Below, in pieces: positions 20,160 to 58,040 of a DNA stretch of 64,000 bases (positions are counted from its first letter, which is position 1; every line of letters begins with the position of its first letter). This DNA comes from Galbibacter pacificus (GTDB lineage Bacteria > Bacteroidota > Bacteroidia > Flavobacteriales > Flavobacteriaceae). The stretch is from NCBI RefSeq assembly GCF_029603165.1, contig NZ_JAQSVC010000001.1, forward strand, positions 620,001 through 684,000. The letters run 5' to 3'. The position numbers and the translations under genes are program-made. The notes beneath the pieces were generated by a model. The model saw only the letters and a list, made by a program, of their open reading frames with translations. It was not told the DNA's origin and searched no databases.

Positions 20160-20180
20160 TACCAACTAAACTGAACTATC

Positions 20181-22038: not shown

Positions 22039-22039
22039 T

Positions 22040-23275: not shown

Positions 23276-23285
23276 AAATTAGTTT

Positions 23286-31600: not shown

Positions 31601-32300
31601 TAATGGGGCAAATTTTGGAAGTGGTCTGGGTTCAGGGCTTAAAGCCGGGCTTATTGGTGGTGCAATGGGCGGTGCTATTAATGGTATTAGTAGTGGAATA
31701 AGAGCCGTAAACAATAATAGAACTTTTTGGTCAGGTAAAGAATGGAACGAATTTACTGTAGGTTATGGTGAAACGGATGCTTATCTAACTCTTGGGAAAC
31801 AAAATTTTTCTACTAAGTGGGATACTGATTACAGTATGTCTATACCTCGAGTGCAGCAAAGTGGTTTATACGATTGTACTTATGCAACAAAGCTTTCAGC
31901 AGATAGATATTTTAATGTTCTTGGACAACAATCTAATAATAATAGTTGGTCTAAATTGGCTAATGCAGGTAGAGTCACGAATGCTAATACCCAAGGATTA
32001 TACAAAGTATCAGGATACGGTGTAAATGCTTATAATAATGATTTAGTTCATACCTTTTCAGCTAAAAATTCATTGCCGTGGATGTTAAATGAAATGAAAA
32101 TGAATAGAATGGTTCAAATCGCATGGAAACCATTAGGAGGGGGAGGTATTGGACATGCGAGTCTGATCTCTAGAGTTAGATATCTATCTGATTTTTCAAG
32201 ATATGGAGTTCAAATAATGAATCCAGCGACAGGGAGTTATAATTGGATGTCTAGACGTGAATTATCTTCAATACATCAAATTTTTAGTTTATGGAAATAA
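25668..32300 (+). CDS. SpvB/FG-GAP/RHS polymorphic toxin with C39-like peptidase tip
   Basis: The 2210-aa protein has a signal peptide (about 1-20). The order is an SpvB-like domain from about 65, then FG-GAP/VCBS calcium-type repeats (DGDGLTD near 508, NGDGKTD near 590, NGDGKAD near 640, NGDNRTD near 705), a TcdB-middle-like part and many YD repeats. The RHS core ends NPLLYNDPSGE, with D1883 in the expected cleavage-type motif. The tip (1888-2210) starts with a long Gly/Ala-rich hydrophobic region and ends in a domain with Q2064, C2070, H2163 and N2185. The Q-x5-C spacing and MNPATGSYNW after the histidine match papain-like C39 peptidases. The TcB-like shell would enclose the tip before delivery. 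The route and target are unknown. Confidence 0.82.
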   Translation: MKKLLLVIFIAGLMIPNALSQELEVKTIKAKEVTQEVKEMEVAENQIKKQPIIASRGSGGTITGSTMGALSVSLTGGANYNIPIDVPPGLNGVQPEISLTYNSQGGNGLAGWGWNISGISMITRIPSTQYHDNKIDGVDFDANDRFSFDGQRLILKSGSYGGSGAVYQTENYSNVKITSYGTHPISGVNGPKYFTVRYPDGSFAHYGLTNDSRSRVDYAISYWENPQGVRINYIYSSDNNGIKIDKISYGARADNAPINTIEFKYEDRERKEQSYINGISFIRSQLLTQIQVKGKGSVGYRNYVLTHDHTSLGYDRLIKVQEKTGDNSLSRNPITFSYGSTANSIVPTNRQPEDLSVINIEQRNSQYVSMDFTGNGKMDFAIYPTTGTEAKKKFWLFEDIQNSTYTNFGHEVSTGGKFEDIFPVTFLNYQNKLMPNQAVVVIQNISNNRTKFKVIGYGGAAQPVALKYEKTWDAPTYRTVDECAPEVDPDHGISTHRMPQKYMAGDFDGDGLTDILSISRTYNEFNCYRDPDQSGHAKPICDCQSYTVNSSQVRLISLDRNTDINDTTTRLGNLNYYLKDSDQIHALDVNGDGKTDIIQFREGKAYVYGLNEDNTSLELLWSLSDTRIKMDFRILPGDYNGDGKADFLIPVADDSSVFTLFMSKGNGFQVFGNTPYPFKYKKYNTDNYPSTVKGYDLIPVDINGDNRTDIIDFQNITYENGVNGSQTIKLYQNTVSSTSDAKPYFSYAATGYYTGELEHFPVPIFLSSNRPNGNLDFATMSDNSVTSFEFTKDHRKEVLLKSVTNNGISTDIAYGKVDIYYTGDGGYYSQVYSAGTTQTYPYVNVDVAPSFNVVSELEQTGAGMTRKKQFYYKGAVSHATGLGFLGFTRVMRSNWQGTDVETIWNISDHDPMLRGAVTEEWVSTSSYPRDNLSHTTYDYDYKLIANPSSPSRPQYDSDIQIDFPISGQKTDEASNSITLLPGFYANGSNGSYIARVVPPEDQPGASGYAGVSDLTLKKTTSENVLTGVTTTETYTYDDYKNVTKAYTTFPGGSKTITYQYSNNPSASSTSFHIGRITNKTERTVLEGNSMTSEEAYTYEGNLVKTLKKRGSGTDWLTETFAYDENGNVLSKQLSGGGVIRTEKFEYASTYDKRFLTKSTDVEGLSTTYTYDVVTGNPATTSNPYGLTTTFTYDAWDRLVTEKNYLNKTTTHVYAPQTGGGMKVTTSYPEGAKEEAVYNVFGWKTRSGTLSLNGQWIYKAYEYDILGRKVRVSEPYTGGSSQWNETKFDEYGRIIDQILFNGKDIGITYSGLSSTVNDGTKMVTTTVDALGNKVKVTDPGGAVNYTYYPNGVMKTANYGGHEVTVQIDGWGRKTKLTDPAAGTYTYEYDILGQLLKETTPKGSTEYTYSTVGKMLTKKLTGDHTNMSLTYQYNGTTKLISSITGVNNTDTETYNYTYTYDSYKRPYTVKEVNSKASFEKRMSYDGYGRINTETYISKNLGDGTSSTIVTKNVYDPSSGLLEEIRNNATAAVLWKINELNARGQALDITLGNGMTQTTTYDAYGYVDKVVDQKKNSTNTITALNLDYSFNVQRGTLNNRKNNKFGWNESFAYDNLDRLKTINGSVSKTMTFDDRGRITKNTDIGDYAYESNNMYRLKEITPNTKGSTYYEQHPTQQISYNAFKKPVEIIEEGHGRANFEYSPMLNRSHAYYGGTQTNKEERRYHKHYSSIIPAEIVEDTQTSSTKIITYIAGDAYSAPIAHIKKTGSGAVDEFHYLHRDYLGSIMAITDASGAIKEQRQFGAWGTVDKFWSSSGATAFNHESLLGRGYTGHEHFFEIGLIHMNGRMYDANLGRFLSPDNFIQNPYNTQNFNRYGYVLNNPLLYNDPSGEFFFLAVAIGAAIGAITQALKPGANFGSILGGALIGAAAGMIGAGVGSVVAGGGFFSSAAVSSSMGFWGGAASGFAGGFAGGFVGGAGNAWLNGANFGSGLGSGLKAGLIGGAMGGAINGISSGIRAVNNNRTFWSGKEWNEFTVGYGETDAYLTLGKQNFSTKWDTDYSMSIPRVQQSGLYDCTYATKLSADRYFNVLGQQSNNNSWSKLANAGRVTNANTQGLYKVSGYGVNAYNNDLVHTFSAKNSLPWMLNEMKMNRMVQIAWKPLGGGGIGHASLISRVRYLSDFSRYGVQIMNPATGSYNWMSRRELSSIHQIFSLWK

Positions 32301-44042: not shown

Positions 44043-44837
44043 GTGAATATAGAGAATAAATTAATACAAATTGCTATTAAAGCAGCGGTCCGGGCAGGCA
44101 TAAATATCATGGAGGTCTATAATGGTGCTGATTTTGATGTTTCCCTTAAAGCAGATAATTCCCCAATTACCAAAGCAGATAAACGAGCCAATAAAATTAT
44201 CACCCAAATTTTGTCGACTACGGGAATTCCCATTATAAGCGAAGAAAACAGTATAATTGATTATAGAGTTAGGAAGCATTGGGAACAATGCTGGATTGTT
44301 GACCCCCTGGATGGGACCAAGGAGTTTGTAAAAAGAAATGGGGAATTTACGGTAAACATAGCCTTGGTAAAGAATCAAAAACCAATACTGGGGGTCGTAT
44401 ATGTCCCGGTGACCAAAGCATTATATTATGGCGTAGTTCCAAAAGAGAAGGCATATAAAACCATTCTTGATAATCCATCAGAAGAATTCTTCATTAGTGG
44501 TCAAGAATTATCGGGACCCGAAAAAAATTCATCAACAATAAAGATCGTTGGAAGTAAGTCGCATATGTCTTCAGCAACAAAAAGAATCATATCAGCTATA
44601 AAAAAGGGATCGAAAAAGGTAGAAATGGTATCCGTTGGGAGTTCGCTGAAATTTTGCCTGTTGGCAGAAGGAAAAGCAACCATCTACCCAAGGTATTCCC
44701 CTACCATGGAATGGGATACGGCTGCTGGACATGCCCTTTGTAGTGCCATTGGATTACGGGTTTTGAATGCAGAAACCCAAGATCCGTTAAGATATAACAA
44801 AAAAGAGCTGATAAATCCGTCATTTATTGTAAATTAA
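44043..44837 (+). CDS. cysQ: 3'(2'),5'-bisphosphate nucleotidase
   Basis: The 264-aa enzyme starts with GTG (44043); no in-frame ATG gives a complete N-terminus. It belongs to the Li+-sensitive inositol monophosphatase superfamily, with the metal motifs SEEN at about 65-68, WIVDPLDGTKEFVKRNGEF and, near the C-terminus, MEWDTAAGHAL. It hydrolyses PAP, the by-product of PAPS use, to AMP. It is the first gene of the sulfate-activation operon and the following ATG comes directly after its stop codon. Confidence 0.93.
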   Translation: MNIENKLIQIAIKAAVRAGINIMEVYNGADFDVSLKADNSPITKADKRANKIITQILSTTGIPIISEENSIIDYRVRKHWEQCWIVDPLDGTKEFVKRNGEFTVNIALVKNQKPILGVVYVPVTKALYYGVVPKEKAYKTILDNPSEEFFISGQELSGPEKNSSTIKIVGSKSHMSSATKRIISAIKKGSKKVEMVSVGSSLKFCLLAEGKATIYPRYSPTMEWDTAAGHALCSAIGLRVLNAETQDPLRYNKKELINPSFIVN

Positions 44838-45254
44838 ATGCAAGATAAAACCAGAAAGAGACATATAGCCAAAGCTATAACATGGCGCCTGGTAGGGACA
44901 ATAGATACAATTACATTGTCCTGGATTATTTCCGGAGACCCATTTACAGGGCTTAAAATAGGCCTGGCCGAAGTAGTGACAAAAATGTTTTTGTATTATT
45001 TTCATGAGCGTATATGGTTTAAGGCCAATGTCCCCGATAGTAAAAAACGCCATCTATTGAAGACCGTTACCTGGAGGATTCTGGGAACCATTGATACTAT
45101 GGTGCTGGCATGGATTATCTCCGGTGACCCGTTTACCGGGCTCAAAATTGGTTTTGCAGAAGTGATTACCAAGATGGTCTTGTATTATTTACATGAAAGG
45201 ACCTGGTACAGAATAAATTTTGGACTGGATAAAAGAAACAATAGTACAACATAA
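44838..45254 (+). CDS. DUF2061 membrane protein, tandem duplicated domain
   Basis: The 138-aa protein consists of two copies of DUF2061 (about 7-60 and 70-123). Each repeats ITWRLVGTIDT or VTWRILGTIDT, WIISGDPFTGLKIG and the final YLHER-type segment, and each has a short hydrophobic hairpin. Identity between halves is high, showing an internal duplication. DUF2061 genes are regularly embedded in cysQ/cysC/cysND operons of Bacteroidota, so a role in sulfate uptake or at the membrane is plausible, but no activity is established. It abuts cysQ and precedes cysC without a gap. Confidence 0.85.
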   Translation: MQDKTRKRHIAKAITWRLVGTIDTITLSWIISGDPFTGLKIGLAEVVTKMFLYYFHERIWFKANVPDSKKRHLLKTVTWRILGTIDTMVLAWIISGDPFTGLKIGFAEVITKMVLYYLHERTWYRINFGLDKRNNSTT

Positions 45255-45848
45255 ATGGAGAAAAATATATTTCCATATCAATTTAAGGTTACCCAAAAAG
45301 ACCGGAATAAACTTAACAGGCACAATTCCTTGCTTGTTTGGTTTACGGGATTGTCTGGTTCTGGTAAATCTACCATTGCCGATGCCCTGGAGCAAAAATT
45401 GCATTCCCGGGGAATAAAAACAATGGTATTGGATGGCGATAATATTAGGAGTAGTTTATGCAGAGGGTTGAATTTCAGTAAAAAAGATCGTTCTGAGAAT
45501 GTTAGAAGAGTAGCCGAGACAGCCCGTTTGTTGCTCGAATCGGGGGCCGTGGTTTTGGCAAGTTTTGTATCACCCTACAAAAAAGATAGAGAATATGTAG
45601 AAAAGACGATAAAACCTAATATATTTGTCGAAGTTTTTGTGAATACGAGCATTGATATTTGTGAAAAGCGAGACCAAAAAGGCTTGTATGAAAAGGCAAA
45701 AAGCGGAACATTGGACAGTTTAACGGGTGTTTCCGCGCCTTATGAAAAACCAGAGAAACCAGCGGTTGAAATTACCGAAAAGGACAGTATACAGGAAGCT
45801 GTCGAAAAAATATATATAGAAATTAAGGATAAGTTAGAACTCAATTAA
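45255..45848 (+). CDS. cysC: Adenylylsulfate kinase
   Basis: The 197-aa enzyme phosphorylates APS to PAPS. It shows the P-loop GLSGSGKSTIADAL (about 33-46), the DGDNIRSSLCRGLNFSKKDR APS-binding region and FVSPYKKDREYV. The C-terminal GVSAPYEKPEKPAVEI lid region is standard. It is a stand-alone kinase, not fused to CysN. PAPS is the sulfate donor for sulfotransferases and, in some organisms, the substrate of PAPS reductase. No reductase gene is in this operon. Confidence 0.95.
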   Translation: MEKNIFPYQFKVTQKDRNKLNRHNSLLVWFTGLSGSGKSTIADALEQKLHSRGIKTMVLDGDNIRSSLCRGLNFSKKDRSENVRRVAETARLLLESGAVVLASFVSPYKKDREYVEKTIKPNIFVEVFVNTSIDICEKRDQKGLYEKAKSGTLDSLTGVSAPYEKPEKPAVEITEKDSIQEAVEKIYIEIKDKLELN

Positions 45849-45850
45849 GA

Positions 45851-46756
45851 ATGAGTAAGTATTATTTAAATTATTTAGACGAGTTAGAATCGGAAGCCAT
45901 ATATGTACTGCGTGAAGTTTGGGCACAGTTTGACAATCCGGTTATTTTATTTTCCGGTGGGAAGGATTCCATTGTAGTAACACATTTGGCAAAAAAGGCC
46001 TTTTATCCGGCAAAAATCCCATTTGCACTGATGCATGTGGATACCGGTCATAATTTTCCTGAAACCATTAAATTTAGGGATGATTTAATAGAGAGTTTGG
46101 GCGTACGTTTAATTGTAGGTTCCGTTCAGGAGTCCATTGATCAAGGGCGCGTTGCCGAGGAAAAAGGTAAAAACGCTACCAGGAATGCACTACAGATTAC
46201 TACATTGCTCGATGCCATTGAGGACAACAAAGTTGATTGTGCAATTGGTGGAGGCCGACGTGATGAAGAAAAAGCAAGGGCAAAAGAGCGTTTCTTTTCA
46301 CATAGGGACGATTTTGGGCAATGGGATCCAAAAAATCAGCGTCCTGAACTTTGGAACCTTTTTAATGGGAAACATTTTGAAGGGGAGCATTTTAGGGCTT
46401 TTCCGATAAGCAATTGGACTGAAATGGATGTTTGGAACTATATAAATCGTGAAAACATACAGATTCCTTCGTTATACTTTGCGCATGAGCGTAAAGTAGT
46501 TTGGAGAAGCAATTCATGGATTCCATATTCAGAATTTTTACAATTGGAAGAAGACGAGGAAGTAGTAACCAAAAAGATCCGTTTTAGGACACTTGGGGAT
46601 ATAACCATTACCGGAGGGATTGAAAGCGAAGCTGATACCGTTTCCAAAATAGCACAGGAGGTTTCGGCAATGCGGCAAACCGAACGTGGAAACCGTTCGG
46701 ATGATAAGCGTTCTGAAACAGCCATGGAGGATAGAAAAAGACAGGGATATTTTTAA
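45851..46756 (+). CDS. cysD: Sulfate adenylyltransferase subunit 2
   Basis: The 301-aa PP-loop ATP pyrophosphatase has FSGGKDSIVVTHLAKKAF (about 34-51), HVDTGHNFPETIKFRD and the C-terminal Arg-rich GRRDEEKARAKERFFS stretch typical of CysD. It forms APS from ATP and sulfate with the CysN GTPase, encoded 21 bp downstream. Its start lies two bases after the cysC stop. Confidence 0.95.
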   Translation: MSKYYLNYLDELESEAIYVLREVWAQFDNPVILFSGGKDSIVVTHLAKKAFYPAKIPFALMHVDTGHNFPETIKFRDDLIESLGVRLIVGSVQESIDQGRVAEEKGKNATRNALQITTLLDAIEDNKVDCAIGGGRRDEEKARAKERFFSHRDDFGQWDPKNQRPELWNLFNGKHFEGEHFRAFPISNWTEMDVWNYINRENIQIPSLYFAHERKVVWRSNSWIPYSEFLQLEEDEEVVTKKIRFRTLGDITITGGIESEADTVSKIAQEVSAMRQTERGNRSDDKRSETAMEDRKRQGYF

Positions 46757-46777
46757 GATTAGATTTAAAGAGAAAAA

Positions 46778-48034
46778 ATGCAGATAGATAACAATCAATT
46801 ATTAAGATTTACCACTGCCGGAAGTGTAGATGATGGGAAAAGCACCTTGATAGGAAGGCTGTTATACGATTCCAAATCTATTTTTGAGGATCAGTTGGAG
46901 GCTATTGAAAACACCAGTAAAAAGAAAGGGCATGAAGGCGTGGACCTAGCGCTCTTTACCGACGGCCTTCGAGATGAAAGGGAGCAAGGAATTACCATTG
47001 ATGTGGCCTATCGTTATTTTACCACTCCGAAACGGAAATTTATTATAGCCGATACACCGGGGCATATTCAATACACCCGAAACATGATTACGGGGGCCTC
47101 CACCGCCAATGCGGCCATTATATTGGTAGATGCACGCCATGGGGTTATTGAACAGACCAAGCGACATGCCTTTATTGCTTCATTGCTTCAAATACCCCAT
47201 ATTATTGTATGCATCAATAAAATGGATTTGGTGGAATTCAAGGAAGAAGCCTATGATAAGATTATTGCTCAATTTGAGGAATTCTCATCAAAATTATTGG
47301 TAAGAGACGTTCGTTTTATTCCAATTAGTGCGCTTTTAGGGGATAATGTAGTAAAGCGTTCCGAAAACATGGAATGGTATCAAGGGGCGCCGTTATTGCA
47401 CACCTTAGAGACGATGCACATTAGTAGTGATATCAATAAGGTAGATGCGCGTTTTCCGGTGCAGACTGTTCTTAGACCTCAAAGTGAAGAGCACAGAGAT
47501 TACAGAGGGTATGCAGGGAGAATATCAAGCGGGATTTTTAGAAAAGGGGATGAGATTACGGTCATGCCTTCCGGGTTTACTTCCAAGATAAAATCGATCG
47601 ACACCTTTGAAGAAGAAGTAAACGAGGCCTATGCCCCTATGTCTGTTTCCATTACTTTGGAAGACGATATTGATATCAGCCGTGGCGATATGATCGTGCG
47701 TACCAAAAACAAACCGGAATCCTCACAGGATCTGGAAGTAATGCTATGTTGGTTGAACAATGAAGCCGCTAAGCCAAGAACCAAATATGTGGTACGCCAT
47801 ACATCCAATGAACAAATGGCCATGGTAAAAGAAATTATCTATAAAATCGACATCAATACCCTTGGAAGGAGTAGTGAAGACAGAGAAATGGAGATGAATG
47901 ATATTTGCAAGGTAAAACTGCGCACAACCAAACCATTACTGTTCGATTCTTATAGGGAAAACCGGATGACGGGAAGTTTGATTTTAATCGACCCAGCAAC
48001 CAATCAAACAGTAGCCGCCGGGATGATCGTTTAA
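46778..48034 (+). CDS. cysN: Sulfate adenylyltransferase subunit 1 (GTPase)
   Basis: The 418-aa GTPase is of the EF-Tu/CysN type with G1 GSVDDGKSTLIGRLL (about 15-29), G3 DTPGHIQYTRNM and G4 NKMD. Two beta-barrel domains follow. GTP hydrolysis drives APS formation by CysD. It lacks a fused APS kinase domain, consistent with the separate cysC. It is the last gene of the operon and is followed by a terminator at 48057. Confidence 0.95.
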   Translation: MQIDNNQLLRFTTAGSVDDGKSTLIGRLLYDSKSIFEDQLEAIENTSKKKGHEGVDLALFTDGLRDEREQGITIDVAYRYFTTPKRKFIIADTPGHIQYTRNMITGASTANAAIILVDARHGVIEQTKRHAFIASLLQIPHIIVCINKMDLVEFKEEAYDKIIAQFEEFSSKLLVRDVRFIPISALLGDNVVKRSENMEWYQGAPLLHTLETMHISSDINKVDARFPVQTVLRPQSEEHRDYRGYAGRISSGIFRKGDEITVMPSGFTSKIKSIDTFEEEVNEAYAPMSVSITLEDDIDISRGDMIVRTKNKPESSQDLEVMLCWLNNEAAKPRTKYVVRHTSNEQMAMVKEIIYKIDINTLGRSSEDREMEMNDICKVKLRTTKPLLFDSYRENRMTGSLILIDPATNQTVAAGMIV

Positions 48035-48145: not shown

Positions 48146-49852
48146 ATGGCTAAGACCATTATTAAATATACTAATTTGGCCTCTTGGCTTGAAGAGTCAT
48201 TATTGAAGATTGATTCTCGAAGAGTCCTTACCTTTTTAGAGCGCGGAGAAATAGAAAAGGAAAATTTCCTAACTGGGAGACAGCTTCATGAATTTTCTAT
48301 AAAATATGCTAATGCAATCCTTGAGAATTCAAATTTTAAAAAAGATTCGGGCCGTCCAGTTATCCTTGCTATGTCTCCAGGACTGGATTTTGTAATTTCA
48401 TTTTTTGCATGTTTGTATTCCGGAGTTATTTGTGTGCCGGTTCCTGTTTCAAAAAATAGGTTAACGCTAAAGCGTTATGAAAGTATTATTAAGAACTGTG
48501 GAGCCAAAGAGATATTATGTGACCATACCGGCTATCATACCTCGCTATACTTATTGAAGGACAATTTTTGTCAAGTTGATAAATTAATAAATATTCACCA
48601 AGAAGATTTTTTTAAAAAAACATGTAAAAATGATTTAAATGGTTTTGGAAAGAAACTTTCAGACCCTATTTATATTCAATATACCAGTGGTTCTTCAAAG
48701 GACCCTAAGGGAGTAGTCTTGAGTAATTCAAGTGTAATTCACAATGCCACCTTAGCAGGTGGATTATGGGATATGAATTCGAAGACTACGGCCGGAAGTT
48801 GGCTACCGATGTATCATGATATGGGGCTAGGAATGATGTTATTTATAATATTACATACAGGACATTTTGTGTTTATGTCTCCCTTAGCATTTGTACAAAA
48901 GCCTGTTAGATGGCTTAAAATGATTTCACATTATAAAATTTCCTTAAGTGGTGCACCACCATTTGCTTATAATTTATGTATAAATAAAATTTTTGATAGA
49001 GATTTAAGCAGAATGGATCTTTCTTCTTGGAAACGTGCATATTGTGGTGCTGAAACAGTTCCCAAGACTGTTCTTAAGGCTTTTAAAGAAAAGTTTTCAA
49101 AATACAATTTGGATCCCAAATCCGTTTTTGCTTGTTATGGGATGGCAGAGGTTAAATTGTATATAGCAGGTCAGCGTTGTGAAAAAGCGTTAGAAACAGC
49201 TGATTCAGTTGATAATTATGTAGCACCTATATGGCTTTCAGAAGAAACTAAAAGTCAGATTAAAATTGTAGACCCGGTTAAATTAAATATCAAAGATGAA
49301 GGTAACAAAGGAGAGGTATGGGTTCAAACAAAATCAAAGGGGCTAGGATATATTCAGCAATATAAAGAAAATCGAATTGATATAAATGATACTGTATTCA
49401 ATGCTAGTATTTCAGAATTATCTGGCTTATGGCTTAGAACAGGTGATTTGGGGTTAGTTTCTGAAAATCAACTTTATATATTAGGGAGGATTAAAGATAG
49501 TTTAAAAGTGAATGGGATGAATGTTTCTCCAGCTGATTTAGAATGTTATGTAGGAGGGCTTCATCCAAGTTTAAATGAATTTGGAGCTGCTGCATTCAGG
49601 AGCTCAAATAAAATTGAAGGAAGGGCACATTTATTAATAGAATTGCATGCATCAAATGAGAATTCTATTGATTTTTTATCTCTTGAAGATAAAATTAGAA
49701 AGGGTGTGTTAACCAATTTTTCAATTGGGCTGGATGATATCCTAATTCTTAAAAGGGGCACACTGGAACGTACTTCCAGCGGGAAGATCCGACGTCAAAA
49801 AATTAGAGAGCAATATTTAAAAGAAAACTATAGCCAATATATGGTCAACTAA
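48146..49852 (+). CDS. Fatty acyl-AMP ligase (FAAL-type)
   Basis: The 568-aa adenylate-forming enzyme has the core motif YTSGSSKDPKG (Y179-G189) and WLPMYHDMGLG. FAAL-type segments are FVQKPVRWLKMISHYKISLS and GAPPFAYNLCINKIF, as in FadD32 and related ligases. The C-terminal subdomain has GRIKDSLKVNGMNVSP and ends TSSGKIRRQKIREQYL. Such enzymes activate fatty acids as acyl-AMP and load them onto an acyl carrier protein. The ACP is encoded three genes downstream (52151). The gene opens an AT-rich unit whose members are spaced by 10 bp or less or overlap. Confidence 0.85.
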   Translation: MAKTIIKYTNLASWLEESLLKIDSRRVLTFLERGEIEKENFLTGRQLHEFSIKYANAILENSNFKKDSGRPVILAMSPGLDFVISFFACLYSGVICVPVPVSKNRLTLKRYESIIKNCGAKEILCDHTGYHTSLYLLKDNFCQVDKLINIHQEDFFKKTCKNDLNGFGKKLSDPIYIQYTSGSSKDPKGVVLSNSSVIHNATLAGGLWDMNSKTTAGSWLPMYHDMGLGMMLFIILHTGHFVFMSPLAFVQKPVRWLKMISHYKISLSGAPPFAYNLCINKIFDRDLSRMDLSSWKRAYCGAETVPKTVLKAFKEKFSKYNLDPKSVFACYGMAEVKLYIAGQRCEKALETADSVDNYVAPIWLSEETKSQIKIVDPVKLNIKDEGNKGEVWVQTKSKGLGYIQQYKENRIDINDTVFNASISELSGLWLRTGDLGLVSENQLYILGRIKDSLKVNGMNVSPADLECYVGGLHPSLNEFGAAAFRSSNKIEGRAHLLIELHASNENSIDFLSLEDKIRKGVLTNFSIGLDDILILKRGTLERTSSGKIRRQKIREQYLKENYSQYMVN

Positions 49853-49862
49853 GTATTTTAGA

Positions 49863-50993
49863 ATGAATAATAACGCTATTGTATATAAAGAAATTGAGGA
49901 TATTCAATTGGCTAAGGAGGTACTGAGACATCCTAGTTTTGGAGTGATTAGAATGGATCAATACCTGGAAAAACTACAAGAATTAACAAAAGAAGATTTG
50001 GGTTTGCTTATTAGATTTTCCAAAAAATCTTTGATTTTCCAATCAGGAGAATCCCATATAGAGTCCCGCCGTTTAATTGCTCATTTTTTTAGTCATCGGG
50101 AAGTACAGAGATGGAGGGACAGCATTGGAAACATCGTTGAAGATATTATGGCAGACCATACATCAAATGATATTGAGGTATTGTCTGATTTTAGTGACCC
50201 CTTATTTGTCAGTTCAATGATTATGGTAATGGGTATACAAGTGAAAGAAGAGGATTTGTTCTTAGAGCATATAAAAATAGCTAAGGCTATTACGGAACCA
50301 CTTTTATCCAAAAAAAGATTGAGAAGAATTCAAATATCTCTGGAATACTTAATAAATCTCGTCAAGGAATCATTTAAAGAAAAAGACTATGAAGAACAAT
50401 CATTCTTAAGTCATATAAAGAATAAAATTGAAAAGCCATGGGATAAATATGAAGAACTTCATATTCTTGTGGTTAGTTTAATTATAGCAGCTCATACCTT
50501 TAGTGAAACTTTTGTGATAATAATGTCTAAGTTAGCTTCTCCTATGAATGATTTGTGGAGTAAAACAAAAGATTTCGAGTGGTTGAATAAAAGAATAGAT
50601 GCTTTTATCAGGCTATACCCAACTACCCAAAGTATTGGTCGAAGAGTTATTAAGGATTGTAATATATTGAATACCCAATTTCAAAAAAATGAAATAGTAT
50701 ATATAAAGGTTCCTATTGTTAATCGCAATCCGATTTTTACAGACGAAGAAGATATCTTATCCGGAACTGAAGAAATAAAATGTCCTTTTTCACATGTTTC
50801 TTTCGGCGGAGGGATTCATAAATGTCCGGGAGCTTCTTTATCTAGAATGATTTTTATGGAAGCTTTTTCAATATTAGCATCAAAATTTCCTGAATTTGTT
50901 TTAACTAAGCCTTTGAATACAAAAAATGTTTCATTTATGGTATCAATTCCTTCTGATTTACAGGCTCGGTTGAAATTAATGAGTGATATTTAA
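49863..50993 (+). CDS. Atypical cytochrome P450 (first copy)
   Basis: The 376-aa protein has a full heme-binding loop, FGGGIHKCPGASLSR, with ligand C321. The otherwise near-universal ExxR of helix K is replaced: the aligned segment RIDAFIRLYP carries A247-x-x-R250. In helix I the acid-alcohol pair is absent (IIAAHTFSET in place of AGxET or AGxDT). Length and lack of a membrane anchor fit a soluble bacterial class I P450. It could oxidise a carrier-bound acyl chain, given the ligase upstream and ACP downstream, but the changed motifs leave catalysis in doubt. No ferredoxin gene is adjacent. Confidence 0.82.
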   Translation: MNNNAIVYKEIEDIQLAKEVLRHPSFGVIRMDQYLEKLQELTKEDLGLLIRFSKKSLIFQSGESHIESRRLIAHFFSHREVQRWRDSIGNIVEDIMADHTSNDIEVLSDFSDPLFVSSMIMVMGIQVKEEDLFLEHIKIAKAITEPLLSKKRLRRIQISLEYLINLVKESFKEKDYEEQSFLSHIKNKIEKPWDKYEELHILVVSLIIAAHTFSETFVIIMSKLASPMNDLWSKTKDFEWLNKRIDAFIRLYPTTQSIGRRVIKDCNILNTQFQKNEIVYIKVPIVNRNPIFTDEEDILSGTEEIKCPFSHVSFGGGIHKCPGASLSRMIFMEAFSILASKFPEFVLTKPLNTKNVSFMVSIPSDLQARLKLMSDI

Positions 50994-51003
50994 TTTTTTT
51001 ACT

Positions 51004-52143
51004 ATGTCAGAAAATAGAAATGCCAACAAATCACATAAAGCCTTTGTTTATATTAATGATATAAAAACAGCTATGGAGATAAGCATGGATAATCATTTTG
51101 GACCACCCCGGATGAAACAACATTTGCTAGAAATAGATGCTCAAAGTAATCTAGATTTATCAACCCTTATATTAATTGTAGAGAATGCTCTTTTTTTTAT
51201 GTCCGGAGAAAGGCATGCCATATTAAAACAGCGTATACTTAGGATAATTGGTCCTGCTAAAAAAAGAAAATGGGATTATATTATTGAAGAGGCTATTAGT
51301 GAATCCATTTCCAATCTTAGCGCCACTAAACAGATAGATTTAATAGCCGATTTTACCTATCCCATTTACAGAAATGCCACACAAAGATTATTGGGAATTT
51401 CACCAGAGAACCCCCAAATCTTCGAATATTGGGTCCCTAAACTTCAGGAATTGTTAGAACCTTTACTTCCCCTTCGTACTTTAGGGAAAATGGAAGAGGC
51501 TTTTAAATCACTGCTACAGGAGGTTAAAAGAAATAGGAATACCAATACGGATATGAAGAAGAACGAATTTATTCCGCTTATAGACGATTTAATAAAAAAT
51601 CCAATTAAGAATTTTACCGATGATGATTATTATGCTGTGATACTTGTATTGTATGGAGCAAGTTTAAATATATCTCAGACATTAGGGAACATATTATTTC
51701 AATTGTTGAAAGCGCCTGAAGAAATAAAAAAAATGGCAAGTAATCCTAAATGGGTAAACCGAAACCTTGAAAGGCTTATTAAATCGGCAGGCTCAGCGCC
51801 ATATGTTCACAGGGTAAGCAGTGATGATGCTCGGTACGGGGATTATAAAATTAAAAAAAATGACAATGTTCTTTTGGATTTACCACAGATACATACCGGA
51901 GGCTGCCCATTTCAGCAATTGGATTGGGGTGAAGAAAAAATTGGTAGGAACGATCATTTAGCTTTTGGCAGGGGAATCCACTATTGCGTGGGGGCCGGAT
52001 TTGCACGGCACCTTATGGAGCGAGCCATAGTAATGTTGTTTGTTGAATATCCAGATCTAGTTATTGTTGAACAGACCTTGGATATTGTTGAAAACAACCC
52101 TATTGTTGCCTTGAATAGCTTAAAATGTAAATTAAACGAATAA
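51004..52143 (+). CDS. Atypical cytochrome P450 (second copy)
   Basis: The ATG at 51004 gives 379 aa; a GTG at 50983 inside the previous gene adds residues of no clear value. The heme loop FGRGIHYCVGAGFAR with C328 is intact. The helix K motif aligns as R257-x-x-K260 in LERLIKSAG rather than ExxR, and helix I reads YGASLNIS without the usual Thr. Its N-terminal half matches the first P450 in pattern (MSGERHAILKQRIL against QSGESHIESRRLI), so the pair probably arose by an old duplication. The ACP gene begins 7 bp downstream. Confidence 0.82.
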   Translation: MSENRNANKSHKAFVYINDIKTAMEISMDNHFGPPRMKQHLLEIDAQSNLDLSTLILIVENALFFMSGERHAILKQRILRIIGPAKKRKWDYIIEEAISESISNLSATKQIDLIADFTYPIYRNATQRLLGISPENPQIFEYWVPKLQELLEPLLPLRTLGKMEEAFKSLLQEVKRNRNTNTDMKKNEFIPLIDDLIKNPIKNFTDDDYYAVILVLYGASLNISQTLGNILFQLLKAPEEIKKMASNPKWVNRNLERLIKSAGSAPYVHRVSSDDARYGDYKIKKNDNVLLDLPQIHTGGCPFQQLDWGEEKIGRNDHLAFGRGIHYCVGAGFARHLMERAIVMLFVEYPDLVIVEQTLDIVENNPIVALNSLKCKLNE

Positions 52144-52150
52144 TATAAAG

Positions 52151-52396
52151 ATGAATAATTTAAAAGAAAACGATATTATTGAATTTGTAAGGTTAAAGAT
52201 TGTAGAACGAACAGACATTGATATAGATGATATTACCGAAGAGAGTAGTTTGGAAGAAATTGGTCTTGGATCTCTTGATGTAGTTTTAATATCCGGTGAA
52301 ATTGAAGATGAATTTAAGGTTGAGGTCGATCCCATGATGATGTTTGAAAGTAAAACTCTAAAGGAAGTAGCCAGTAGGGTAATAGCATCTAAATGA
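52151..52396 (+). CDS. Acyl carrier protein
   Basis: The 81-aa acidic protein has the phosphopantetheine site at S41 in IGLGSLDVVLISG and the usual four-helix pattern, including DIDIDDITEESSLEEIG before the site. It probably carries the acyl group activated by the ligase at 48146 while the P450s and possibly the carbamoyltransferase act on it. It overlaps the carbamoyltransferase gene by four bases (52393-52396). This dedicated ACP is distinct from the housekeeping AcpP, which is not in the window. Confidence 0.9.
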   Translation: MNNLKENDIIEFVRLKIVERTDIDIDDITEESSLEEIGLGSLDVVLISGEIEDEFKVEVDPMMMFESKTLKEVASRVIASK

Positions 52397-54081
52397 GTTT
52401 AAAACAGTGTCATATTGGGTTGTCCGTCTCGGGCCACGATCCTGCTATTGCAATAATAGATGAGAAAGGGGAAGTAGCCTTTGCAGAGGCTACTGAAAGA
52501 TTTGTCCAGCAAAAAAGGGCTTGGGGTATTTTACCGGATCATCCAGAGCATATAAGAAGTATACTACCTAAGTATATTGATAATAATTCCGAGATTTTTA
52601 TTGCAAAGACATGGTTGAGTTCCAAAAGGGAATTACCATTAAATGTTTCCGGAGGATTTATGTTTGAAGATAATGATATTAAATGGCTATTAGGCCTTCA
52701 ATCTTATTCTTTTAATGAAGCAGGAAATAATATAAGGCATCTATATGGAGATAAGGTTAAAAAGGACGAATGTTTTGATCATCATTTGACCCACGCTGTT
52801 AACGCATCTTATAGTGCCCCCTTTAGTAATGCATTATGTCTGGTGATTGACGGGGAAGGAGAGGTAGGTGCAGCAAGTCTTTATCGATTAGAATCAAGAA
52901 GGTTAAAAAGAATATGGAGGTCATGGGGCCCGGGTAGTTTGGGGAGTTATTATGGCCTATTGACCAAATTATGTGGTTTTGACTGGAGGGTAGGAGAAGA
53001 ATGGAAAGTGATGGGGCTTGCCGCTTACGGGAAGTTTGATATAAGTATCCTAGATAACCTTAAAAAACTAGTGCAGGTAAAAAACGGGAAATTGTTTTTC
53101 CCACCTTCAAAGGAAGTTCTTGATTTACTAGTTGAATTGAGAAAAAGCGGAAGAGAACATAACGAAGATATTATGAAGGCCTCGGATCTTGCTTTTAATG
53201 GACAACTTGCTTATAGTTATTTTCTGGACCAAATATTGAAATCGATACAATTAGAGAGCGATGAGAATTTGATTTTAACTGGTGGTTGCGCATTGAATTC
53301 AGCATATAATGGTACTATAATTAAAAATCATAATTTTAAAAATATCCATGTGCCTAGTGCCCCTGCAGATGACGGAAATGCCGTGGGAGCTGCCTTGTTA
53401 TCATGGATGAAATACAATCAAACAAATAAGATTCCATCGGGAGATGGCTCTCCTTATTTAGGAACCGATATCAGAGATAATTTAACCAAAAAAAAGCGAC
53501 AGGCTATTTTGAAACACCACAGTTTTTCTCGTGTGGAATCATGCATAGCTGATAGTGGATATCAAGTAGCCCAACTTCTCTATCAAGGAAAAATTATAGG
53601 AATCATGCGCGGAAGGGCCGAGTTTGGCCCAAGAGCATTGGGGAATAGGTCTATTCTAGCTGATCCTTCTCGATTAAATTGTAAGGAATATATCAATTCC
53701 AGGGTAAAAGGAAGAGAAGATTACAGGCCTTTTGCCCCGGTAGTTTTTGAAAAGGATATCAAACGATTTTTTGATTATAATTTACCCTCACCTTATATGT
53801 CTTATACATTGCCATGGAAAGAAGATTTTTTGAAAAAGATACCCGGAGTGGTTCATCATGATAATACAGGTAGGTTACAAACTATAAACAAAGAGAGGAA
53901 CCCTTGGCTGTCAAGTGTATTGAATGAGTTTGAAGCCTTGGGAAAGTTACCAGTATTATTAAATACCAGTTTTAATGTAATGGGTAAACCAATCATCCAT
54001 TCTGTTGAAGATGCAATGGCTGTATTAACTACAACTGGCCTTGACGGTTTGTTAATTGACGATCTGCTCATTGTAAAATAA
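52393..54081 (+). CDS. Carbamoyltransferase (NodU/CmcH family)
   Basis: The 562-aa protein has the YrdC/Kae1-like N-terminal part of the family: HIGLSVSGHDPAIAIIDEKG, metal-site histidines in FDHHLTHAVNASY (H131, H134) and GEGEVGAASLYRL. The C-terminal domain has RAEFGPRALGNRSILADPSR and FNVMGKPIIHSVEDAM. Family members transfer a carbamoyl group from carbamoyl phosphate, via carbamoyl-AMP, to a hydroxyl on a sugar or small molecule (NodU on Nod factors, CmcH on cephem). Here the acceptor may be a hydroxyl made by the P450s or a sugar. It is coupled to the ACP gene by a 4-bp overlap. Confidence 0.9.
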   Translation: MSLKQCHIGLSVSGHDPAIAIIDEKGEVAFAEATERFVQQKRAWGILPDHPEHIRSILPKYIDNNSEIFIAKTWLSSKRELPLNVSGGFMFEDNDIKWLLGLQSYSFNEAGNNIRHLYGDKVKKDECFDHHLTHAVNASYSAPFSNALCLVIDGEGEVGAASLYRLESRRLKRIWRSWGPGSLGSYYGLLTKLCGFDWRVGEEWKVMGLAAYGKFDISILDNLKKLVQVKNGKLFFPPSKEVLDLLVELRKSGREHNEDIMKASDLAFNGQLAYSYFLDQILKSIQLESDENLILTGGCALNSAYNGTIIKNHNFKNIHVPSAPADDGNAVGAALLSWMKYNQTNKIPSGDGSPYLGTDIRDNLTKKKRQAILKHHSFSRVESCIADSGYQVAQLLYQGKIIGIMRGRAEFGPRALGNRSILADPSRLNCKEYINSRVKGREDYRPFAPVVFEKDIKRFFDYNLPSPYMSYTLPWKEDFLKKIPGVVHHDNTGRLQTINKERNPWLSSVLNEFEALGKLPVLLNTSFNVMGKPIIHSVEDAMAVLTTTGLDGLLIDDLLIVK

Positions 54082-54087
54082 AAAAGC

Positions 54088-55623
54088 ATGCTGTTTACTT
54101 CGTTGGAATTTGTATTTATTTTTTTTCCATTGACATGGATAATATTTTTCTTCTTATCAAGAAAATATAAATCTTTCTTAGCAGTTTTTTTATTAATTAC
54201 TTCATGGGTATTTTGTTTTCTAACCTCTATCCAAGGACTTGTTATTTTATTATTTTCAGTTATTTTCAATTATATCATAGGGTCCTTTATCAGTAAGAAA
54301 AATGGCAACAATCTCTTAAGATGGACCATTTTTGGAATAGTAGCCAATATTACTGTATTATTCTATTTTAAATATGCCAGTGGGAAATTATCTTTTTTGA
54401 TAGAGAATAGTGATAAAATGTCTGAGAATTATGTGGCATTTGGTATACCACTTGGTTTATCCTTTTACACATTATTTCAAATTTCGTATTTAATAGATCT
54501 ATATAAAAAAAGAAAAGAAAATTTGCCTCTGATTAATTACGCGTTGACAGTATCCATGTTTTCTCAATTACCTGCGGGACCTATCTTAGTATACAAAAAT
54601 GCATACAATAAGTTTAAAGATATTGGGAGGAATGATCTAAATATGGATATGGTGAATAAAGGGGTTTCACTCTTTGTTTTTGGCTTATACAAAAGGGCTC
54701 TATTTGCACAACCAATGAGCCTACTGGTGAATGAAGTGTATGATAAACTCAAATTGGGAAGTGAAATTACAGTTTTAGATTCCTTGATAGCAAGTTGGGG
54801 CTTTTTATTACAATTATATTTTGATTTTTCCGCGTATTCAGATATGGCAATAGGGATAGCTTTGTGTTTTGGCATACAGTTACCAATTAATTTTAATTCA
54901 CCGCTGAAGGCTAAATCTGCAGGTGATTATATTCTAAGGTGGCATATTTCTTTAATAGCTTTTACAAGAGACTATGTGTTTGTACCGGTATCCAATTCAG
55001 TTAGAAAATATTTAAAAGGTTCTTCTGTTAAAAAACAATTGTGGGGTTGGATTTTAGGGACTTTTGCGGCTTATATGGTAATCAATACTTGGCATTCACC
55101 AACGCTGAATTTTTTGCTATATGGAATAATTGTAGGGGTTTTTGTTATAATTAGCCAAATGACAAATTTAAAATTACAAACAGCATTAAAATTAAAATCT
55201 CATAAATTTTTAAAACTGTTATACCCCTATTTAAGTCAACTTATGCTTTTAATTGTGGCTTCTATTATTACTATGTCTTTAAGGGCTGAAAATATGCAAA
55301 TGATTCAAAAGGTCATAAAAGGAATTTTTATATTCCCTATGAGCGCAAGTACGTGGTTTGAATGGAAAAGTGTAAAACTATTTGGATATGGAACATTAGG
55401 CGTTTCTATAATTTTATTTATGAGTATCACATCTCTAATTGCAATATCAGGGCCCAATACTATGGAGATATTTAAAATAATCAGGATTAAAAAAACTGTA
55501 TGGTATACGAAGTATTTTTGGAATCCAACTCTAATATGGGGCATAATTATCGGAGTATTACTTTTTTTATATTTGATTTTAGGAGATAGTTCTAAACAAG
55601 ATTTTATATATGCACGATTCTAA
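54088..55623 (+). CDS. MBOAT family O-acyltransferase (AlgI/DltB type)
   Basis: The 511-aa polytopic inner-membrane protein opens LFTSLEFVFIFFPLTWIIFF, typical of AlgI-type MBOATs. It has the FDFSAYSDMAIGIAL motif, RWHISLIAFTRDYVFVPVS and the catalytic His region NTWHSPTLNFLLYG with H336. These proteins move acyl groups from a carrier across the membrane to an extracytoplasmic acceptor, usually with an SGNH-type partner. The partner gene overlaps it by 14 bp (55610-55623). Alginate O-acetylation (AlgI/AlgJ/AlgX) and D-alanylation (DltB/DltD) are the models. Confidence 0.9.
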   Translation: MLFTSLEFVFIFFPLTWIIFFFLSRKYKSFLAVFLLITSWVFCFLTSIQGLVILLFSVIFNYIIGSFISKKNGNNLLRWTIFGIVANITVLFYFKYASGKLSFLIENSDKMSENYVAFGIPLGLSFYTLFQISYLIDLYKKRKENLPLINYALTVSMFSQLPAGPILVYKNAYNKFKDIGRNDLNMDMVNKGVSLFVFGLYKRALFAQPMSLLVNEVYDKLKLGSEITVLDSLIASWGFLLQLYFDFSAYSDMAIGIALCFGIQLPINFNSPLKAKSAGDYILRWHISLIAFTRDYVFVPVSNSVRKYLKGSSVKKQLWGWILGTFAAYMVINTWHSPTLNFLLYGIIVGVFVIISQMTNLKLQTALKLKSHKFLKLLYPYLSQLMLLIVASIITMSLRAENMQMIQKVIKGIFIFPMSASTWFEWKSVKLFGYGTLGVSIILFMSITSLIAISGPNTMEIFKIIRIKKTVWYTKYFWNPTLIWGIIIGVLLFLYLILGDSSKQDFIYARF

Positions 55624-56563
55624 AAATAACTTTACAAAGACGGTTTTCATAGTTTTTGGTGTATTAACCCTACTTTTAGGGCTATTTAATTTTATAATTG
55701 ATCCTTATCGCTTACATAAAAAGCGAATACCTGGAATCAATGATCAAGTATGTAGAGGTTTTTTTTCATACAATTCAATGGATAACTTGATGCAATATTA
55801 TTTTTCAAAATATAATGATGAACCTAATTTGATTCTAGGTACCTCTCATATCATTAGAGGAGTCCCCGATTGTCGATTTACGGATATATTCAAAATGGGA
55901 ATAAGTAGTATGAGTATCGAGGAGGCAGCTTTAATACTAGAAAAGCTATTGGACAAGAAAAAACTTCCTGATAATATTTATATTGAATTGATGGCTGGAG
56001 AATCGATTTCATTCCAAAATGGAAAACCGAATCGAATCAATGATAAAATTTCTTGGTATAGGAGGTTTATTGATATTAAAACTTTGAGAATGACTTTTAG
56101 TACTATAAGAAATAGCATAGGGCTTAAGACTATTATCTGTGGTGTCCCGGACATTTCAGATACCTTTGTTGATAAGGTAGATGGGACGGAATATGTTCGA
56201 AGAATTCAAGAAGAGGAATACTTATCATGGTTAAGTCTTATTGATAAGTTAAATAGAAAAATTGGAGATCATAAGGTTAATATTACTTTTTTTACCTCTC
56301 CTTTGCCATATGGAGCAATGAGTAGTGTAAAGGCTAAGGGGATATCTAGATATAATTATATGGTGATTAATAAAGTTATAAATGCCAGTAAAAAATATAA
56401 CAATATAATGTGTAATTATATTGACTTATTAAATTCAAGTATTGGTGCTGATTATATTCCTGGGACCACTTCTTTTAATCAGGGCTGGTATGATGCTTCT
56501 CATTATAAGTCAAAAATAGGAGAAAAAGTCGTAGATACATTGCTTCAAGTGACCCAAAAATAA
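55610..56563 (+). CDS. Membrane-anchored SGNH-like protein, MBOAT partner
   Basis: The 317-aa protein has one N-terminal helix (about 10-30) and then an extracytoplasmic domain. Block I reads LILGTSHIIRG with S79, and the C-terminus has GWYDASHYKSKIGEKV with D295-x-x-H298, the Ser and Asp-x-x-His pattern of SGNH hydrolases. No residue-level match to AlgJ, AlgX or DltD beyond these motifs was recognised. Placed directly behind an MBOAT, it most likely performs the final acyl transfer to the surface acceptor. It is the last gene of the AT-rich cluster, followed by 211 bp of non-coding sequence. Confidence 0.68.
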   Translation: MHDSKNNFTKTVFIVFGVLTLLLGLFNFIIDPYRLHKKRIPGINDQVCRGFFSYNSMDNLMQYYFSKYNDEPNLILGTSHIIRGVPDCRFTDIFKMGISSMSIEEAALILEKLLDKKKLPDNIYIELMAGESISFQNGKPNRINDKISWYRRFIDIKTLRMTFSTIRNSIGLKTIICGVPDISDTFVDKVDGTEYVRRIQEEEYLSWLSLIDKLNRKIGDHKVNITFFTSPLPYGAMSSVKAKGISRYNYMVINKVINASKKYNNIMCNYIDLLNSSIGADYIPGTTSFNQGWYDASHYKSKIGEKVVDTLLQVTQK

Positions 56564-56774: not shown

Positions 56775-58040
56775 ATGAAAGAAAAATATAAAATTGCCAT
56801 AGTAGGTCTTGGGTATGTAGGGTTGCCCTTGGCCGTTGAATTTGCCATTAAAGGTTTTTCGGTAATCGGTTTTGATATCAATCAAAAAAGGGTTTCCGAG
56901 CTTAAACAGGGAAAGGATGTAACCGATGAGGTTATGGGTAACGAATTGGAAAAAGCAGAAAGTTTGGTATTCAGTTCAGATGAAAACGATTTAACCGATT
57001 GCAATGTATACATAATTACAGTACCGACCCCGGTAGATGATTTTAAACAGCCGGATTTACGCCCCTTAATTTCTGCAAGTACCACCGTAGGGAAACACCT
57101 TAAAAAGGGCGATATAGTCGTGTACGAATCCACTACCTATCCCGGATGTACCGAAGAAGACTGTGTGCCTGCGTTGGAATCTTCAAGTGGATTAACTTTT
57201 AACAAGGATTTTTTCTGTGGATATTCCCCGGAACGTATCAACCCGGGCGATAAACAAAGAAGGCTTAGGAACATTATGAAGGTAACTTCCGGAAGTACCC
57301 CGGAAATCGCCGAGGAAGTTGATAAACTATATGGAGCCATCATAGAAGCAGGAACACATAAGGCATCGAGCATAAAAGTAGCCGAAGCCTCCAAGATTAT
57401 TGAAAACACACAGCGCGATATCAATATTTCTTTAGTAAATGAACTAGCCCTTATTTTTGATAGGATTGGCGTGGATACCGTTGAAGTATTGGAAGCCGCA
57501 GGGACTAAATGGAATTTTTTGCCATTCCGGCCGGGATTGGTTGGCGGACATTGCATCGGGGTAGATCCGTATTACTTAACCCATAAAGCTGAGCATTTGG
57601 GATATCATCCGCAGGTAATTTTATCGGGAAGGCGTATTAATAACGATATGGGCGTTTTTATTGCCAATAAAATTGTAAAATTGATGGTGAAAGACCAGCT
57701 TCCGGTTAAAAATGCCAGAGCCTTGGTTTTAGGGATAACTTTCAAGGAAAACTGTCCGGACGTAAGAAATTCGAGGGTAATCGATGTTATTGATGAACTG
57801 GAAGGTTTTGGGCTCGATGTGGATACATACGATCCCTATGCCAACAAGGAAGAAGTTAAAAAGTATTACGATGTTGATTTGATTGATGAAATAACCGATA
57901 GGTACGAAACCATTGTACTTGCAGTTGGACATAAAGAATTTGCCGATTTAGATTTCGATACGCTAAAATCTGGTCCGCGGACCATTATTTATGATGTGAA
58001 AAGCTTTCTTCCGAAGGAAATAGTGACCGCAAGATTATAA
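56775..58040 (+). CDS. Nucleotide-sugar 6-dehydrogenase (WbpO/TviB type)
   Basis: The 421-aa enzyme has an N-terminal Rossmann fold (AIVGLGYVGLPLAVEFA), the substrate-binding middle domain and catalytic C260 in GGHCIGVDPYYLTHKAEHLG. The C-terminal UDP-binding domain has GITFKENCPDVRNSRV. Within the UDP-glucose/GDP-mannose dehydrogenase family, the IVVYESTTYPGCTEEDCVP and NTQRDINISLVNE segments fit the WbpO/TviB/VipA group. These oxidise UDP-GlcNAc or UDP-GalNAc to the uronic acid for capsule or O-antigen. Exact substrate is not settled. It precedes rmlB by 11 bp. Confidence 0.88.
   Translation: MKEKYKIAIVGLGYVGLPLAVEFAIKGFSVIGFDINQKRVSELKQGKDVTDEVMGNELEKAESLVFSSDENDLTDCNVYIITVPTPVDDFKQPDLRPLISASTTVGKHLKKGDIVVYESTTYPGCTEEDCVPALESSSGLTFNKDFFCGYSPERINPGDKQRRLRNIMKVTSGSTPEIAEEVDKLYGAIIEAGTHKASSIKVAEASKIIENTQRDINISLVNELALIFDRIGVDTVEVLEAAGTKWNFLPFRPGLVGGHCIGVDPYYLTHKAEHLGYHPQVILSGRRINNDMGVFIANKIVKLMVKDQLPVKNARALVLGITFKENCPDVRNSRVIDVIDELEGFGLDVDTYDPYANKEEVKKYYDVDLIDEITDRYETIVLAVGHKEFADLDFDTLKSGPRTIIYDVKSFLPKEIVTARL

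Follow-up and report, generated by a model that had tools for sequence, protein, structure and literature searches.

The window analysed in this study is a stretch of 64,000 nucleotides of the Galbibacter pacificus genome (contig NZ_JAQSVC010000001.1, positions 620,001 to 684,000), and our subject is a cassette of seven genes within it, which encodes a fatty acyl-AMP ligase (FAAL), two P450-fold proteins (P450a and P450b), an acyl carrier protein (ACP), a carbamoyltransferase (CTase), an MBOAT and a membrane-anchored SGNH protein (Table 1). A preliminary description of this DNA had reported seven contiguous genes on one strand with gaps of no more than 10 bp, and all seven open reading frames (ORFs) were found at that place and on that strand. 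From FAAL to SGNH, the intergenic distances are 10, -11, 7, -4, 6, and -14 bp, respectively; for P450b, the ATG at 51004 looks likelier as a start than the listed GTG. The cassette lies 111 bp from cysN on one side and 211 bp from the gene of a UDP-sugar dehydrogenase on the other. Its GC content is 0.333, compared with 0.395 in the remaining window, and values as low were reached in 7 of 556 sliding windows of cassette length, which agrees with the earlier remark that the block is AT-rich.

Table 1. Genes of the cassette and the gene at its right border, with positions in the window.
Feature	Position	Strand	Basis
Fatty acyl-AMP ligase (FAAL)	48146-49852	+	NCBIfam model, PDB relatives
P450a, counterpart of the N-terminal half of the double P450 that is fused elsewhere	49863-50993	+	Pfam p450, alignment with fused proteins
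P450b, counterpart of the C-terminal half of the fused double P450	50983-52143 (from GTG)	+	Pfam p450
Acyl carrier protein (ACP)	52151-52396	+	PP-binding, 2e-13
NodU/CmcH-type O-carbamoyltransferase (CTase)	52393-54081	+	Carbam_trans_N and Carbam_trans_C (Pfam)
DltB-like MBOAT	54088-55623	+	TIGR04091, profile and fold matches
Membrane-anchored SGNH protein (gene 7)	55610-56563	+	Conserved residues, fold; no meaningful family-model match
UDP-sugar dehydrogenase, first gene of the polysaccharide locus and right border of the insertion	56775-58040	+	Pfam UDPG_MGDP_dh

Pfam and NCBIfam agreed with the families previously assigned to the first five genes (AMP-binding/FAAL, P450 twice, PP-binding, and Carbam_trans_N/C). 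The ligase scored 293 bits against the fatty-acid--AMP ligase model of NCBIfam and 75.6 bits against that of DltA. Its relatives in the PDB were 7r7e (named "Polyketide synthase", 256 bits), 3kxw ("Saframycin Mx1 synthetase B", 232.9 bits), FadD23 (8hd4, 193.4 bits), and DltA (47.7 bits). Such an enzyme would activate a carboxylic acid and load it onto the ACP, in which Ser41, the putative phosphopantetheine site, is kept in 14 of 14 aligned rows. The CTase has O-carbamoyltransferases as its PDB relatives (9s2t, GdmN, and TobZ), and the carbamoyl donor of NodU/CmcH-type enzymes is carbamoyl phosphate.

Species genomes were scanned with a CTase alignment and a peptide pattern, and the best 80 of 258 relatives were kept. 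Of these 80, 28 contained the cassette and another had a decayed copy. The 28 loci, the window, and two loci on plasmids make up the 31 loci considered here, a lower bound in view of the peptide pattern and the cut at 80 relatives. P450, ACP, and CTase were found in all 31 loci and FAAL in 30; the FAAL gene of L050 lies 3' of the SGNH gene, and the P450 and ACP scores of L044 are weak. The loci belong to Alphaproteobacteria, Gammaproteobacteria, Bacteroidota, and Verrucomicrobiota. For example, Pedobacter polysacchareus (58% identity) is a carrier in the Bacteroidota, and tblastn detected FAAL, a fused P450-P450, ACP, CTase (51% identity), MBOAT, and an exported protein in the same order on a Rhodobacteraceae SC52 plasmid, and the same order without the MBOAT on a Phaeobacter G2 plasmid. 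In a CTase tree of 85 rows, which came from a quick search without bootstrap and in which L049 and L050 are long branches, all 31 cassette CTases formed one clade (SH-aLRT 100), and the presence of the cassette needs one change. It had been set down beforehand that a lack of co-occurrence in other genomes would refute the proposed system, and the genes do co-occur in these 31 loci, 16 of which also carry the MBOAT and SGNH genes. A chance grouping of AT-rich genes is ruled out, because the same set and order recur in other phyla. The decayed copy (L054, 7658-11692, from a Breoghania metagenome-assembled genome) has a fragmented P450 and a CTase in pieces, and it was excluded from the tree and from every count of 31.

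The genes that would take the product off this core (off-loaders) are of several kinds. Profiles were run on all ORFs of the 31 loci, and 16 loci had the MBOAT and SGNH pair, seven a VexE-like protein (L025-L027, L034, L035, L047, and L048), seven a thioesterase-like protein (L019, L028, L033, L038, and L042-L044), one neither (L040, whose contig begins inside its FAAL gene), and none two kinds; since the rows behind the four profiles were taken from these loci, the presences are partly by construction and the absences are not. A piece of L043 that was not the thioesterase part was removed from the alignment before the profile was built, and L028 was left out of alignment A7 following a frame error. 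Because the off-loaders exclude each other, we believe that the MBOAT/SGNH pair does the last step for an ACP-bound product, and this exclusion is the strongest sign of it. VexE similarity was found with NCBIfam in six of the six proteins scanned, five of which also match TPR-protein models; the VexE-like protein of L025 was recognised by the off-loader profile alone (114.9 bits) and lies 3.8 kb before its P450. The thioesterase-like proteins were so named by reading, on the strength of a GGNCQGA motif, with Cys where Ser is usual, and of their general sequence character; L019, the single member scanned, gave no match in Pfam or NCBIfam. According to the part of PMC9597891 consulted, VexE acylates UDP-GlcNAc from beta-hydroxyacyl-ACP, so the VexE-like alternative likewise speaks for a product held on the ACP. 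The pattern of off-loaders suggests an acyl group that the core assembles on the ACP and that the last gene or genes off-load. In addition, a B12-binding radical SAM gene (L018 13203-14723 and counterparts; identified with Pfam in the two members scanned and by BLAST cluster in the others) stands beside the cassette in 13 of the 31 loci and in L054. These 13 comprise four MBOAT loci, three thioesterase-like loci, and six of the seven VexE-like loci.

No Pfam PF03062 match was found for the MBOAT; it scored 120 bits against the DltB model TIGR04091 of NCBIfam, its profile matched DltB in the PDB (6bug, E 2.3e-37), and its best fold relative was again DltB (8jem). L018 and L019 were excluded from the alignments used for structure prediction, and the predicted model has two long extra C-terminal helices (438-454 and 482-498). 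His286, His336, and Tyr508 are kept in 15 of 15 rows. The C-terminal end reads FIYARF; a terminal Tyr is present in all 16 cassette MBOATs and the strict FXYXXF tail in seven of them, that of the window included. FXYXXF is described as an acyl-shuttle motif in PMC12148441, which is cited here and below for the part consulted. Against 12 other MBOATs, those of the cassette form a separate clade (support 100/100). All 12 others have an aromatic residue following the shuttle Tyr, and all 16 cassette MBOATs have a small or polar one. A use of this residue as a readout of cargo size was rejected, because the acetyl carrier PatA (FIYANF/FIYSSF) and DltX (FLYFGF) refute it.

For gene 7, neither Pfam and NCBIfam models nor a profile search against PDB sequences gave a meaningful match. 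The protein has an N-terminal helix (2-30) and an SGNH fold with invariant Ser, Asp, and His, and its catalytic residues are probably Ser79, Asp295, and His298. In two fold searches, DltD was absent among the best 50 listed in one and ranked 29 in the other, in which the DltD alignments were the longest (204 and 203 residues). Because platelet-activating factor acetylhydrolase and esterases outrank DltD, the fold points to SGNH and not to DltD in particular. The DltB profile and fold matches and the SGNH fold thus bear out the earlier view of a DltB-like and SGNH-like pair. In L018 (23636-26072) and L037 (14685-17148), a second MBOAT with a FIYFQF tail and an exported protein come right after the cassette pair.

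The Dlt system carries out the D-alanylation of teichoic acids in Gram-positive walls. Like Dlt (DltA-DltC-DltB-DltX-DltD), the cassette has an adenylating enzyme, a carrier, a DltB-type MBOAT, and an SGNH partner in one operon. Unlike Dlt, it has a FAAL in place of the D-Ala ligase, and P450s and a CTase in addition, and its shuttle motif is fused to the MBOAT instead of lying on a separate small DltX-like ORF. There is no room for such an ORF inside the cassette, and no ORF of at least 25 aa ending in FXYXXF was found in the two border gaps, to which the search was confined. PatA/PatB and AlgI-type O-acetylation resembles the cassette in having an MBOAT with extra C-terminal helices and an FXYXXF tail and a separate anchored SGNH protein. 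With the shuttle motif as part of the MBOAT itself, the pair is mechanistically nearer to PatA than to DltB/DltX. The preliminary description of a dlt-like cluster is partly supported: the likeness covers the carrier, the DltB-type MBOAT, and the SGNH protein in an operon, and does not extend to the shuttle, which is fused as in PatA, or to the ligase, which is not DltA. PatA/AlgI-type pathways have no carrier protein because they use acyl-CoA (PMC12148441, part consulted); in contrast, an ACP gene is in the operon at all 16 cassette MBOAT loci, and the MBOAT presumably uses that ACP. An annotated ACP was found within 4 kb in none of eight control MBOAT loci, which we picked from 25 listed of 136 plasmid records and for which the PLSDB annotation is incomplete. 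The combination of a Dlt-like carrier feed with a PatA-like fused shuttle is not listed in the consulted part of that 2025 mechanistic paper (PMC12148441).

A carrier next to an MBOAT was not upheld as unique to the cassette. On the Rhodobacteraceae SC52 plasmid pSC52_6 (L023, 5781-10634), an annotated ACP, a HAD-IIIC protein, which we take to be FkbH-like, an MBOAT with a FIYFNF tail, and a further protein stand in a row, near sulfotransferase and sulfate-activation genes. In L023, too, a carrier may thus feed an MBOAT, perhaps with a cargo of the glyceryl type.

Two further systems were compared. VexE, the beta-hydroxyacyl-ACP acyltransferase for the anchor of the Vi antigen, shares with the cassette an ACP-fed acylation tied to a surface polysaccharide; unlike the MBOAT, it is an LPLAT-family enzyme without a trans-membrane shuttle, and none is present in the cassette of the window. 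In FAAL/ACP/P450 lipopeptide starter lines and P450BioI, the acid is activated by an acyl-AMP ligase, held on an ACP, and possibly oxidised while bound. Unlike the starter lines, the cassette has no nonribosomal peptide synthetase or polyketide synthase (PKS) modules and ends in membrane transferases. Full-text searches of an open-access library turned up no account of this gene set. The parts all come from known families, and the transfer step varies one that is already known; what is new to us is how they are combined, that an ACP stands next to a self-shuttling MBOAT, and that the off-loaders are exchangeable.

On balance, we favour the view that the cassette is a laterally acquired, carrier-protein-fed envelope acylation system. 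Its gene architecture and conservation are as observed above; we infer its reactions, the order of the P450 and CTase steps, the chain, and the acceptor as follows. FAAL would adenylate a fatty or other carboxylic acid and load it onto the ACP. The paired P450-fold enzymes would act on the ACP-bound chain, most likely by adding a hydroxyl, which the NodU/CmcH-type enzyme would then O-carbamoylate with carbamoyl phosphate. At the cytoplasmic face, the MBOAT would move the group from the ACP to Tyr508 in its own FIYARF tail. Ser79 of the anchored SGNH protein would receive the group next and hand it on to an extracytoplasmic acceptor with a free hydroxyl. This acceptor may be the polysaccharide made by the adjoining locus but need not be.

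Several observations weigh against this scheme, and the first of them concern its P450 step. According to our own gene calls, the 31 loci have a fused double P450 (703-745 aa) in 19 cases, two genes in five including the window, and a single P450, which evidently suffices, in six, with L043 unclear. For alignment, the fused proteins were split into halves at places chosen by us. The ExxR motif of helix K is, to our knowledge, near-universal in P450s; it was seen in one of 11 P450a rows and none of 12 P450b rows and is absent from both proteins of the window. As 22 of the 23 rows lack ExxR, the P450-fold proteins may not be ordinary monooxygenases. They could instead be scaffolds or non-oxygenase catalysts on the ACP-bound chain, with the CTase acting on a hydroxyl present from the start, e.g., that of a 3-hydroxy acid; TIGR04515, the family of P450-derived glycosyltransferase activators, was also among the weak NCBIfam matches (21.8 and 40 bits). 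Against this stands the heme-ligand Cys, which is kept in 11 of 11 P450a rows and 12 of 12 P450b rows (23/23). We consider such a non-oxygenase role rather unlikely; it is compatible with envelope acylation and alters the second step. In favour of the P450 step, the best PDB match of both profiles was 3ejb (biotin biosynthesis P450-like enzyme; 143 and 151 bits), which we take to be P450BioI bound to acyl-ACP; its lead over the next P450s is just 8 and 13 bits. Binding of an ACP-held chain is plausible, and the reaction is uncertain.

The make-up of the loci also counts against the scheme. L042 is the sole locus of the 31 without FAAL, and the tails of four of the 16 MBOATs deviate (L032 ...YARL, L036 ...SYGG, L039 ...VYG, and L041 ...VYNR). 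L018 and L037, and L019 and L038, are near copies, so there are approximately 29 independent loci. The presence of the MBOAT needs at least four changes within the cassette clade, and therefore the MBOAT/SGNH pair is not a fixed part of the cassette. Such changes also count in favour of two unrelated modules that merely adjoin each other, namely an acetyl-CoA-fed PatA/AlgI-like pair for polysaccharide O-acetylation and, independent of it, a FAAL/P450/ACP/CTase line that makes a different product. The MBOAT carries the fused shuttle of an acyl-CoA user, and its FIYARF is much like the FIYANF and FIYSSF tails of PatA, an acetyl carrier (PMC12148441). However, in 16 of the 31 loci, spread over four lineages, the MBOAT gene comes immediately after that of the CTase, and the cassette MBOATs are a clade of their own that never occurs alongside other off-loaders. 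We regard two independent modules as quite improbable.

The acceptor is the third point. The glycan made by the following genes had been proposed, and this did not hold as a general rule. Neighbours were sampled as one to four hand-picked genes per locus at 11 loci (one each for L029, L031, L036, and L045) and more for the window, and polysaccharide-type genes were seen in five of these 12 loci (the window, L024, L039, L047, and L049, the last a GT8/sulfotransferase). No polysaccharide gene was among the sampled neighbours in the other seven (L029, L030, L031, L036, L041, L045, and L050), so an acceptor encoded next door was rejected as a rule. Because of these seven loci, the acceptor may be a common part of the envelope, such as lipopolysaccharide, peptidoglycan, or a lipid. 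The same seven loci also fit a core that makes a small secreted metabolite or lipid, with the MBOAT/SGNH pair esterifying that molecule or a membrane lipid and not an envelope polymer. FAAL, P450, ACP, and NodU-type CTases are used in natural-product lines, CTases approximately 40% identical to that of the cassette sit in PKS or terpenoid-like clusters, and a thioesterase-like protein replaces the pair in 7 of the 31 loci. In contrast, the cassette CTases form a clade apart from the PKS-linked ones, the fused-shuttle MBOAT/SGNH device is described as acting on envelope polymers (PMC12148441, part consulted), and VexE, the model for another off-loader, acylates a sugar nucleotide (PMC9597891, part consulted). 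A natural product of this kind is, in our judgement, unlikely.

Beyond envelope acylation as such, we tentatively propose, and stop short of calling it probable, that FAAL, the ExxR-less P450 pair, ACP, and CTase are an interchangeable "acyl foundry", as a third way of envelope acylation. This unit would assemble an acyl group that is both oxidised and O-carbamoylated, and each lineage would connect it to one of the exclusive deliverers. If so, there would be surface glycans or lipids with carbamoyl-acyl groups that have not been described before, and a new kind of surface decoration is predicted in at least four bacterial lineages. It would also break the rule, as given in the consulted part of PMC12148441, that Dlt alone among the MBOAT/SGNH pathways employs a carrier protein. 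The generality of the acyl-Tyr shuttle is at stake, that is, whether a tailored and possibly bulky carrier-held chain can move on it, beyond acetyl (from CoA) or D-alanine. The exclusive off-loaders can serve as natural controls. The P450 pair without ExxR is a separate puzzle.

The cassette is flanked by cysN before it and by a polysaccharide locus after it. The downstream genes encode a flippase-like protein, a Wzy_C protein, glycosyltransferases, and a WecA-like transferase, and dTDP-rhamnose-type genes are also apparent from ORF translations; on account of these genes, the cassette stands at the edge of a surface-polysaccharide locus. In the congeners G301 and G299, a homologue of the UDP-sugar dehydrogenase lies approximately 320 and 260 bp after cysN, respectively. 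Among six congeners, the site after cysN is empty in two (L116 and L117), holds other genes in three (L114, L115, and L118), and reaches a contig end in one (L119). The cassette-type CTase is missing from all six, G300 having a 36% relative elsewhere; the host genome itself carries a second carbamoyltransferase with 32% identity to that of the cassette. The empty site in two of six congeners and the lack of the cassette CTase in six of six fit the acquisition suggested earlier. In the other 298 of the family's 299 genomes, P450a had weak matches in 13 (27.5 bits at best) and gene 7 had no match. Over 395 genomes of the phylum, the P450b profile scored 464 bits in the genome of the window and no more than 110 elsewhere.

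Further features were noted around this site. Directly before the cassette (44043-48034), CysQ-, APS kinase-, CysD-, and CysN-like genes, read from translations, make up a sulfate-activation set, and in the congeners sugar-type genes likewise come after cysN. In the congener G256, a transposase-like ORF, IS3-like by reading, occurs in two copies after cysN (L114 4006-4896 and 7504-8394). Approximately 14 kb past the cassette in the host genome (L120 6159-7157), a KAS III-type ketoacyl-ACP synthase lies within the polysaccharide locus, as a further acyl-ACP enzyme amid sugar genes. Elsewhere in the window, approximately six similar ORFs stand in a row (19158-25182) and appear by reading to have repeated GIGTxxP blocks and a C-terminal GHLxxIPSAxE-like block; they are followed by a giant ORF that reads as RHS-like (25668-32300).

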